Assembly (NCBI GenBank): GCA_903919035.1
Contig: CAIXGY010000144.1
Span: 1 to 36,643 of the forward strand
DNA from: an uncultured Planctomycetaceae bacterium
GTDB lineage: Bacteria; Planctomycetota; Planctomycetia; Pirellulales; UBA1268
DNA length: 36,643 nucleotides
Direction of reading: 5' to 3'
This document shows, in pieces, positions 2,162 through 29,056 of the stretch. Made by a program: the position numbers and the translations under genes. The stretch's first letter is position 1, and every line of letters begins with the position of its first letter. The notes below the pieces were generated by a model. That model worked only from the letters and a program-made list of their open reading frames with translations. It did not search any database and was not told the DNA's origin.

Positions 2162-2258
2162 GCGAGGGTCTGCCCATGCCGTCGAGCCGACGCCGAGTCG
2201 GCGGCGCCCAGGATGGGCGTCGCGAACGTCCGGCGAGAGTGCATGGGCAGACCCTCGC
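2162..2258. repeat. Intergenic structured repeat, copy 1
   Basis: A perfect 18-base inverted repeat (2162-2179 against 2241-2258) closes a 61-base interior. The interior has a GCCGAC/GTCGGC hairpin (2186-2202) and a CGCCCA-GGA-TGGGCG hairpin (2205-2219). Bases 2208-2257 align without gaps to 28995-29044 with 39 of 50 identical, so this belongs to a dispersed family. It sits between the speA stop and the nadE start, on the same side relative to transcription as copy 2. No U-run follows it, so it is not a classic intrinsic terminator. Function is unknown; a REP-like element or a structured RNA segment is possible. Confidence 0.7.
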
Positions 2259-2279: not shown

Positions 2280-4199
<1,920 letters not shown>

Positions 4200-4290
4200 C
4201 AAGAGGCTCCAGCCTGGACGGTGCCGCCGATCTGCCGGCCGCACCGTTCGTCAGTGTAGCGTCGGCGCCCGTGCGGGCCACGCCGCCCGG

Positions 4291-26696: not shown

Positions 26697-28796
26697 CTAC
26701 ACGAACGCCTCGGCCGTCTCCGCGGGCGCCGGGCCGTACTTCAGGGGCGCCATCGTGAAACTGGCGCGGCCCTGGCTGACGCTCCGCACCGCGGCCGAGT
26801 AGCCGAACATGCTCCCCAGCGGCGCCTCGGCCGTCAGCACGGTCACCCCGCCACGGATCTCCGTGCCGGTGATGATCGCCCGCCGCTGCTGCAGGTCGTT
26901 GATGACGTCGCCGAGGTGCTCCTCCGGCACGCTCACCTCCACCCGCATGATCGGCTCCAGGAGCACGCTGCCCGCCTCGGCGAGCATGCGGTCCACGGCC
27001 TCCGCCGCCGCCATGCGGATCGCCACGTCGGACGGCGGCGGATCGGGGATGGGGCTCTCGAGCACCGTGATCCGCACCGCCCAGAGCGGACAGCCCTTGA
27101 GGCCGCCGCGTTCGGCGCTCTCGCGGACGGCCTGGGTCATCGTGGCGGCCAACTCGGCGAGGCTCTCCGCCTCGGGAAACCAGCCCTGCTCCACGGTCAC
27201 GGAGCCCTGCGCCTCGACCGGCTCGGCCCGGATCGTGACGGCGGCCTGCAGCATCTGCCCGCCCACGAGCCGCGCGACGTTTCCAACGACCGTCACCGGC
27301 CTGGCCAGCGTCTCCTTGTAGCTGACCCGCGGCTTGTGGACGCGGCACTTGAGGTTGAAGTCCCGCTCCAGCCGATGACGGATCACCTCCAGATGAAGCT
27401 CGCCCATGCCGGAGATGAGCGTCTGGCCGGTCTCCTCGCTCTCGAGCGCGCGAAACGTGGGATCCTGCCGCTTCATCATCTCGAGCGTCTCGGCGAGCTT
27501 CTTCCGCTCGAGGCTCGTCTCGGGCTCGATCGCCATCGAAATCACCGTCTCGGGGAACTGGATCGTCTCCAGCACGATCGGGGCGGCGGCGTCGCAGAGC
27601 GTGTCGCCCGTGACGCTCGCCCGCGGCCCGATCACGCCCACGATGTCACCGGCGAAGGCCTCGGGGATCTGCTCGCGGCGGTCGGCCTGCACGTGCCAGA
27701 GCTGCGCGATGTTCTCCTTCTTCTGCTGCCGCGGATTCCAGGCCCGGCTGCCGGCCTTGAGCGTGCCGGAGTAGACCCGCACGAAATACAGGTCGCCGTG
27801 CTTCTCGGCGATGATCTTGAAGACGAGGCCGCAGAAGGGCTCCTGCGGATCTGCCCGGCGGACGGCGGTGGCGGCCGTCTTCGAGCCCGGGTCGACCCCC
27901 TCGACGGGCGGCACGTCGGCGGGGCTGGGCAGATACCAGGCGACCGCGTCGAGCACCGGCTGGACGCCGATGCAGTCGAGCGCCGATCCGGCGAGCACCG
28001 GCACGACCTGGCGGGCAATCGTCGCCCGGCGGATCGCCCGCCGCAACACCTCCGGCGGGATCGCCGCCTCGGCCATCACCAGTTCCGCCACCTCGTCGGA
28101 CAGATCGAAGAGCATCGAGACGAGGTGCTCGCGGTACTCGTTCGCCACGTCGGCGAGTTTGGGCGGGATAGGCCCCGCCTGCACGGCCGCGAGCGCCGCC
28201 CCGCCGGCGAGCGCCTCGTCCTTCGCGGGGAAGGTGAGCAGCTGCATCTCGACGAGGTCCACGATGCCGCGAAACGGATCCTTCACGTGCGGCGGCCCGA
28301 GCCCCAGCGGCACATGCAGCACCAGCGGCCTCGCGCCGAGCCGCTTCTCGATCTGATCCACCGTGCCGAAAAAGTCGGCCCCCTCGCGGTCGAGCTTGTT
28401 CACGAGCGCAAGCCTGGGCACGCCGTACTTGTCGGCCTGTCGCCAGACGGTCTCGCTCTGCGCCTCGACCCCCTCCCGGGCCGAAAACACGACGACCGCC
28501 CCGTCGAGCACCCGCAAACTCCGCTCCACCTCGGCCGTGAAGTCGACGTGGCCGGGCGTGTCGATGAGGTTCACCGTCACGTCCCGCCACTGGAATGACA
28601 CGGCCGCCGAGTAGATCGTGATCCCCCGCTCCTGCTCCTCGGGATCGAAGTCGGTGATCGTGGTGCCGCGATCCACCTCGCCGAGCCGGTGGCTGGTCTT
28701 CGTGAAGAAGAGCAGTCGCTCCGTGAGCGTGGTCTTGCCGGCGTCGATGTGGGCCACGATGCCGATGTTGCGGATGTGTTCCAGGGAGCGCTTCAT
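26697..28796 (-). CDS. fusA: Elongation factor G
   Basis: This translational GTPase has 699 residues and the five-domain EF-G layout. GTPase motifs are AHIDAGKT (15-22), the switch region ERGITIYSAA, DTPGH (79-83) and NKLD (133-136). The domain V segment LLEPIMRVEVSVPEEHLGDVINDL is typical. The switch I segment RGTTITDFDPEEQERG differs from the ATMDWMEQEQERG pattern of ordinary EF-G, and the end (FTMAPLKYGPAPAE) is unlike the usual FDHYEPVP. It is not next to rpsL, rpsG or tuf. It may therefore be an EF-G paralogue such as the translocation or recycling forms reported in Planctomycetes. The symbol is given for the family. Confidence 0.88.
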   Translation of the reverse strand: MKRSLEHIRNIGIVAHIDAGKTTLTERLLFFTKTSHRLGEVDRGTTITDFDPEEQERGITIYSAAVSFQWRDVTVNLIDTPGHVDFTAEVERSLRVLDGAVVVFSAREGVEAQSETVWRQADKYGVPRLALVNKLDREGADFFGTVDQIEKRLGARPLVLHVPLGLGPPHVKDPFRGIVDLVEMQLLTFPAKDEALAGGAALAAVQAGPIPPKLADVANEYREHLVSMLFDLSDEVAELVMAEAAIPPEVLRRAIRRATIARQVVPVLAGSALDCIGVQPVLDAVAWYLPSPADVPPVEGVDPGSKTAATAVRRADPQEPFCGLVFKIIAEKHGDLYFVRVYSGTLKAGSRAWNPRQQKKENIAQLWHVQADRREQIPEAFAGDIVGVIGPRASVTGDTLCDAAAPIVLETIQFPETVISMAIEPETSLERKKLAETLEMMKRQDPTFRALESEETGQTLISGMGELHLEVIRHRLERDFNLKCRVHKPRVSYKETLARPVTVVGNVARLVGGQMLQAAVTIRAEPVEAQGSVTVEQGWFPEAESLAELAATMTQAVRESAERGGLKGCPLWAVRITVLESPIPDPPPSDVAIRMAAAEAVDRMLAEAGSVLLEPIMRVEVSVPEEHLGDVINDLQQRRAIITGTEIRGGVTVLTAEAPLGSMFGYSAAVRSVSQGRASFTMAPLKYGPAPAETAEAFV

Positions 28797-28849
28797 GCGA
28801 ATCTCATGTGATGCTCGATCAGCCGTCCATCGCTTTGCTGCACGCCGTC

Positions 28850-28878: not shown

Positions 28879-29056
28879 TCGCCCAACGCGGCTTCGGGGA
28901 TGCTCGAATCCTCTCGGCCGGACGTTCACTCCGGGCATCCATGCCCTCTGTTCACTCGGAGGTGCCTGCGCTTCGCCCTCCGAGCGAGCGGAGGCCAGGA
29001 TGGCCGCAGCGAGCGTCCGGCGAGCGGGTGTGGGCAGCCCCGAGCCGGTTGGGCGA
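28879..29056. repeat. Intergenic structured repeat, copy 2
   Basis: Most of the 309-base argS/EF-G gap is one folded element. TCGCCCAAC (28879-28887) pairs exactly with GTTGGGCGA (29048-29056). CGGCTTCGGGG (28889-28899) then pairs with CCCCGAGCCG (29038-29047) with one bulge. Inside are GGGCAT-CC-ATGCCC (28933-28946), CTCGGAGG/CCTCCGAG (28955-28984) and GGCCA-GGA-TGGCC (28993-29005). Bases 28995-29044 match copy 1 (2208-2257) at 39 of 50 positions. The GGA-loop stem differs between copies at both paired positions. No gene or transposase is associated. Confidence 0.7.

Follow-up and report, generated by a model that had tools for sequence, protein, structure and literature searches.

The gap between speA and nadE of an uncultured Planctomycetaceae bacterium carries a large hairpin, and the question raised by this locus is whether such a structure serves the genes beside it or belongs to a dispersed, mobile repeat. 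The window, i.e. the whole analysed stretch of 36,643 nucleotides, had been the subject of a sequence-only reading in which a perfect 18-base terminal inverted repeat was reported for this gap, together with a similar structure between argS and the EF-G gene. The two ends of the first structure (copy 1) are indeed exact reverse complements over exactly 18 nt, and a search of the window for perfect 18-nt two-arm inverted repeats at most 120 nt apart returned none besides copy 1, the two remaining 18-nt matches being single self-palindromes. The strong folding claimed for the gap was reproduced as well (z about -9 against shuffles); the fold of copy 1 was calculated at -82 kcal/mol, compared to -48.7 +/- 3.7 for shuffled sequences (z -8.96; 0 of 200 shuffles as low). 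The 50-base likeness to the argS/EF-G gap (copy 2) was recovered with 39 of 50 positions identical without gaps (2208-2257 against 28995-29044), the extended similarity between both copies covering 62 nt at 77%. The GGA-loop stems, CGCCCA/TGGGCG in copy 1 and GGCCA/TGGCC in copy 2, read exactly as reported. The features of the window are collected in Table 1.

Table 1. Positions of the repeat copies, terminal inverted repeats (TIR) and flanking genes in the window
Feature	Position	Strand	Basis
TIR-element right end, cut by contig start	1..68	+	Motif search
nadE	129-2132	minus	
Repeat copy 1, shortened 97-nt version	2162..2258	+ (core, or model, strand)	Sequence; R1 match 2166-2254
Copy 1 outer stem P1, 5' strand	2162..2179	+	GCGAGGGTCTGCCCATGC, perfect 18 bp
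Copy 1 arm A, single hairpin GCCGAC-GCCGA-GTCGGC	2186..2202	+	Sequence, model alignment
Copy 1 arm B apical hairpin CGCCCA-GGA-TGGGCG	2205..2219	+	Sequence, helix 7 of model
Copy 1 outer stem P1, 3' strand	2241..2258	+	GCATGGGCAGACCCTCGC, perfect 18 bp
speA	2280-4244	minus	
Probable decayed TIR by copy 2	28796..28817	-	17/22 against TACGGATCCCACGTGATCCTCG, compared by eye; TCA precedes
Repeat copy 2, argS/EF-G gap	28896..29041	+	R1 59.9 bits, E 1.6e-11

The complete form of the repeat was deduced from a collection of loci in which full copies are mostly 128-140 nt long. In the full repeat of about 131 nt, a 17-bp outer stem (for example GGGGCTGCCCATGCCCC/GGGGCATGGGCAGCCCC) is followed by a short inner stem (GCCGG/CCGGC) and by two arms, whose apical loops are conserved and of the GGA type. 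Arms A and B each end in a small hairpin around GGA, and the whole folds as a three-way junction whose ends read GGGG...CCCC without a tag. A covariance model, R1, was built from 34 copies of other genomes, with the genome of the window excluded. The search with such a model, which had been proposed in the sequence-only reading, matched both window copies and many relatives, copies 1 and 2 being the two best R1 matches in the window (62.4 bits and E 4.4e-12 within the window for copy 1, well outside what chance would give). In the R1 alignment copy 1 shows a deletion of 40 positions in arm A, which measures about 45 nt in full-length copies and is here cut down to a 6-bp hairpin. Copy 2 was also scored on the minus strand (28898-29018), both of its arms being arm-B-like and in inverted orientation; it resembles two arm-B halves fused head to head.

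Further copies, whose absence from the genome had been named as the observation that would speak against a repeat family, are plentiful. Searched by blastn with the hairpin, the genome of the window (3.46 Mb) yielded about 40 strong copies, many of them at contig ends, and each of the 21 further genomes searched within the genus also contained copies. With R1 (E <= 1e-6), 32 of the 36 genomes sampled from the same family (11 genera) gave matches, and the 160 genomes sampled from the other families of the order gave none. Most congeners carry dozens of matches per genome, with counts near or at least 56, which are lower bounds since at most 56 matches were scored for each genome. A contiguous sample of 0.79 Mb from congener G018 contained 12 R1 matches; 34 were found in 0.43 Mb of contigs from the genome of the window, selected in part because copies were already known on them. 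The repeat has thus been amplified to dozens of copies per genome within a single planctomycete family. No match to Rfam was found at the gathering threshold, and a relaxed threshold gave only scores far below gathering. A literature search, with most subscription papers outside its coverage, found no description of the repeat in Planctomycetes, and it apparently has not been described before.

The suggestion that the structure is under selection was borne out by the pairing statistics of the 34 copies, based on a structure of 47 pairs. Paired cells amounted to 92.9%, and 144 cells carried changes on both sides. As many as 26 of the 47 pairs were changed on both sides, a number equalled in 0 of 500 shuffles and falling to 9-14 when the partners were slid by 1-3 columns; the copies are related, so these counts do not represent independent events. 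At paired positions outside this genome, G.T combinations outnumbered A.C combinations by 58 to 10, compared to about 90 and 57 when the letters were shuffled, as counted over 48 pairs including one whose base serves two helices and which is dropped from the 47-pair structure. These combinations, too, were counted in related copies and are not independent events; when examined by column, 26 columns still followed one direction and 4 the opposite one. A G.A/A.G tandem in arm B is kept between covarying pairs. The base pairing of the repeat is under selection, and the fold is constrained on one strand.

Two kinds of mobile DNA were found to carry the repeat. Many copies in the genome of the window sit inside elements bounded by inverted CGCGAGGATCAMGTGGGRTCCGTA; this terminal motif occurs there 103 times with at most 3 mismatches, against 0 occurrences of the reversed pattern. 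The elements range from 132 to about 450 bp in length, and the bases beside both ends read TNA, with the same N at both ends in 9 of 11 pairs from G018, G002 and G014 and in 5 of 8 pairs in the genome of the window. G018 shows the same arrangement; its elements have a TIR variant of their own and contain one hairpin. The window itself starts in such an element, the outer-stem end of a hairpin occupying positions 1-19 and the terminal repeat CGCGAGGATCACGTGGGATCCGTAT positions 44-68; the TCA target is formed by the last T of CGCGAGGATCACGTGGGATCCGTAT and the following CA. The inverted repeat near copy 2 is only a probable remnant, because its start coincides with the EF-G start codon. Around copy 1, the letters GATCGACGT..ATG of the nadE leader were dismissed as a right-hand TIR remnant, since the hairpin-less loci L152 and L154 carry them as well, and a left-hand candidate beside speA (TGCGGATC..GCGCGG) is too short for a claim. 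Throughout the genome of the window (G000) about 120 ends of TIR elements were counted, and many contigs end inside an element. Forms of 132 bp in which the hairpin core is missing and the foot of the outer stem is kept, as if the hairpin had been lost by deletion, were seen, for example in L043 (1501-1632; G000:C235), and C303 and C84 show a similar 132-bp spacing.

Elements of the IS1031 group (IS5 family) target TNA (PMC12016507), and like the MITEs of this group the TIR elements around the repeat have 3-bp TNA duplications (PMC12016507). A matching autonomous element, in contrast, was not found: the PF13340 and PF01609 loci of the genus included no partner with the same terminal repeats. 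The DUF4096 and DDE_Tnp_1 loci (PF13340, PF01609) were considered as an IS5/IS1031-group partner for the TNA elements and rejected, as they do not carry the TIR; DUF4096 transposases are present in only 4 of 22 genus genomes, none of them showing the TIR of the TNA elements.

The second carrier is an insertion sequence of about 1.57-1.64 kb with the TIR CAATCCTGTTCGGCACGG. Its transposase of 413 aa matches NF033592 above the cut-off (E 2e-52), which places it in the IS4 family, and contains the Y-x2-R-x3-E-x6-K signature of this family as YRLRWLIEMFFRTFK. Transposase signature, TIRs and duplications of 9-10 bp (9-13 bp being expected) all agree with this assignment. Near-intact copies were found in G002, G008, G012, G020 and G021, and a decayed one in the genome of the window (contig C192). 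In 5 of 5 near-intact copies of the genus, and in several decayed ones, a family hairpin is located about 85 nt past the transposase stop codon, always in the same orientation, preceded by a conserved linker and followed by the right TIR. The related IS of G059, of a different family (46% identical), has no hairpin at that place, which indicates that the IS probably acquired its hairpin ahead of the radiation of the genus.

The same IS is also found inside copies of the repeat. At 13 of 16 loci in the genus, with flanks read by eye, hairpin-apex sequence abuts the IS ends, the exceptions being G009 C48, G009 C65 and G017 C81. Exact apex duplications of 9-10 bp were identified in L121 and L311 (GCAGGATGC) and in L120 (CCATCCCTGG), and the rejoined sites of L121 and L311 score as members of the repeat family. 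The exact duplication of the apex and the 13 of 16 loci show that the hairpin loops are landing sites of the IS; the apex of arm B is its insertion site in copies other than copy 1. An IS cousin (51-59% identical) was seen in L313 and L325 of G015 at CCATGGAGG-like sites, and not in hairpins.

A fixed insertion point in a palindrome together with direct repeats is the pattern of REP-like IS targets. REP/BIME sequences are specific insertion sites of IS1397, IS621, ISKpn1, ISPsy8 and ISPpu9 (Tobes and Pareja 2006, PMC1525189); ISPsy8 inserts at the symmetry axis of the hairpin, and the halves of the broken palindrome lie on either side of the IS copies (PMC1525189). As in those systems, dispersed intergenic palindromes are hit here by one particular IS (PMC1525189). 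In contrast to the REP/BIME targets of 21-65 nt, the planctomycete palindrome has about 131 nt and two arms (PMC1525189), and unlike the ISs that target REP/BIME, the present IS belongs to the IS4 family, makes 9-10-bp duplications and carries a copy of its own target palindrome. ERIC/YPAL/NEMIS-type repeats are imperfect palindromes, 107-168 bp long, that lie between genes and fold stably as RNA (Delihas 2007, PMC2229807). The planctomycete repeat resembles them as an intergenic imperfect palindrome with a stable fold, limited to related hosts and non-autonomous (PMC2229807); it differs in being GC-rich, in lacking a terminal TA, in its restriction to one planctomycete family, in its preference for convergent gaps and in giving no match to an Rfam family. 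The repeat is classed here among the intergenic palindromic repeats, with one IS as its dedicated visitor, and works like REP/BIME and ERIC-type repeats.

The sequence-only reading had also considered a mobile palindromic family without a transposase of its own, and the dozens of copies per genome, the varying occupation of the orthologous gap and an element too small for a transposase gene fit this description. Most probably, the family is a non-autonomous REP/ERIC-like palindromic repeat which mobile DNA both carries and lands in. It would spread, at least partly, as cargo of the short TIR elements with 3-bp TNA duplications and of the IS4-family element, in which one copy lies between the transposase gene and the right end. 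The same IS lands in the arm tips of other copies and duplicates the 9-10-bp apex. The repeat itself may be passive or semi-passive and tolerated behind genes, and could give the IS safe and recurrent targets. Many genera have dozens of copies and no close relative of the IS, so transport by the IS cannot explain the whole family. Copy 1 is a shortened and probably immobile relic in the nadE leader, which may have arrived by the TIR-element or the IS route. No target duplication could be defined around stand-alone copies, copy 1 included, and no enzyme moving them was found; such copies may nevertheless be mobile at present.

These results add a large, structure-conserved family of palindromic repeats to the Planctomycetota, where repeats have scarcely been described, and tie it to one IS which is carrier and visitor at once, with copies that can be traced over dozens of species. 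The strand-specific pairing is relevant to the long-standing debate over what maintains such repeats, the host or their own mobility. The repeats also break metagenome assemblies; many contigs, including that of the window, start or stop in them.

The gene context was determined for 74 copies with both neighbours visible, using a simple, crude codon-based gene caller and copies that are not independent: 38 lie in convergent, 31 in co-directional and 5 in divergent gaps. As background, the 0.79-Mb sample of G018 has 64 convergent, 237 co-directional and 88 divergent gaps, counting those no shorter than 30 bp. Convergent gaps thus hold 51% of the copies compared to 16% of the gaps (odds ratio 5.4, P 8e-10), and divergent gaps are depleted (P 0.001). 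In co-directional gaps the folded strand was sense in 14 cases and antisense in 17 (P 0.72), and both window copies are antisense to their neighbouring genes, the core strand of copy 1 being antisense to speA and nadE. The direction of the effect is clear: the copies avoid promoters and are indifferent to the reading direction.

Strand-specific pairing, including the kept G.A tandem, combined with random orientation to host genes would indicate that the element is what selection acts on, rather than host mRNAs. This leads to a second reading, possible though doubtful, in which the repeat would be mobile in its own right: its single strand (DNA or RNA) would have to fold in order to be copied, an enzyme not yet known would move it, and the IS4-family element would have become its partner. 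Passive transport alone does not account for a constraint that tolerates G.T and avoids A.C. If this second reading were true, the IS would home to the arm tips, both would gain a harmless address behind genes, and a copy would be carried along.

A regulatory RNA element of the host, acting in mRNA 3' ends as a terminator or in processing or stability in a BIME- or ERIC-like manner, could account for the strong preference for positions behind genes, especially convergent pairs, for the avoidance of divergent gaps and for strand-specific pairing rules. Avoidance of promoters alone, however, yields the same context, and the indifference to sense and antisense in co-directional gaps speaks against an action on host mRNAs as the reason for the fold. 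Only 3 of 78 copies have five or more T among the 9 nt that adjoin one of their ends, and an intrinsic terminator was rejected for lack of a U-tract. As the speA-nadE copy is also missing from most congeners and both window copies are antisense, a host RNA element is considered rather unlikely.

Compensatory changes could also arise by template switching, the fold being a by-product of quasi-palindrome correction without selection. Such correction is known to act on long palindromes. The outcome would follow Watson-Crick pairing on either strand, which predicts neither the one-strand excess of G.T over A.C (58 against 10) nor a G.A/A.G tandem kept amid pairs that covary, and this origin is regarded as unlikely.

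A strand-specific fold, G.T tolerance and the conserved tandem G.A would fit a REP-like element moved as folded ssDNA by a Y1 (HUH) transposase that is unassembled in most genomes or lost, and some relatives do possess Y1 transposases. A search for Y1_Tnp (PF01797) gave no match in G000, and none in 15 of 21 congeners, though all carry the repeat, and mobilisation by a RAYT was rejected on this ground. In shape the repeat, with its approximately 131 nt and three-way junction, is also unlike a tagged REP of 20-40 nt. CGTC REPs likewise lack a dedicated transposase, and reports of GTAG REPs include the PVC superphylum (Di Nocera et al. 2013, PMC3733652). The planctomycete repeat is comparable to both as a high-copy extragenic palindrome downstream of genes (PMC3733652). 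GTAG/CGTC REPs have stems of 5-13 bp and a 4-nt tag, whereas the planctomycete repeat has a 17-bp outer stem and two arms (PMC3733652); the CGTC in its core (GAACGTCC) lies at the junction and is not a terminal tag as in CGTC REPs. In size, tag and enzyme the repeat departs from REPs mobilised by RAYTs, and a Y1 route is judged very improbable.

Finally, a conserved riboswitch-like nadE leader or an already described RNA family, suggested by the highly structured sequence in the leader, is hardly credible, as there is no credible Rfam match, the same hairpin stands beside unrelated genes genome-wide, the model strand is antisense to nadE, and the hairpin is absent there in most relatives. The closest named nadE relatives belong to planctomycete MAGs, several of them from lakes. 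The speA-nadE order is kept, and many relatives have 12-84 bp between the genes and no hairpin. In G008 and G011, the nearest congeners by nadE identity, a family hairpin lies in the gap, reversed compared to copy 1; G006 has a family hairpin upstream of nadE, and in G005 and G016 the gap is occupied by a different TIR element. The presence of the hairpin therefore varies between congeners, and it is not a conserved nadE switch. Copy 1 and the copies of G008 and G011 could go back to a single insertion that was later inverted where it lay, or to two independent ones.

The gap hairpin of G011 (L279, G011:C62) is split in arm B by an insert of about 110 nt starting near GGAGGCGAGGGGG, and the copy of G008 is intact. 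Another dispersed palindrome (ACAGGTTGAAAACCTGTGCTAC) adjoins congener hairpins in the flanks of L072, L078, L080, L268 and L271. A further repeat family, with repeated units around GGCTGCGGGACGGCAGAAGTCTCC that are intergenic in relatives, was observed in L148, L285 and L097.
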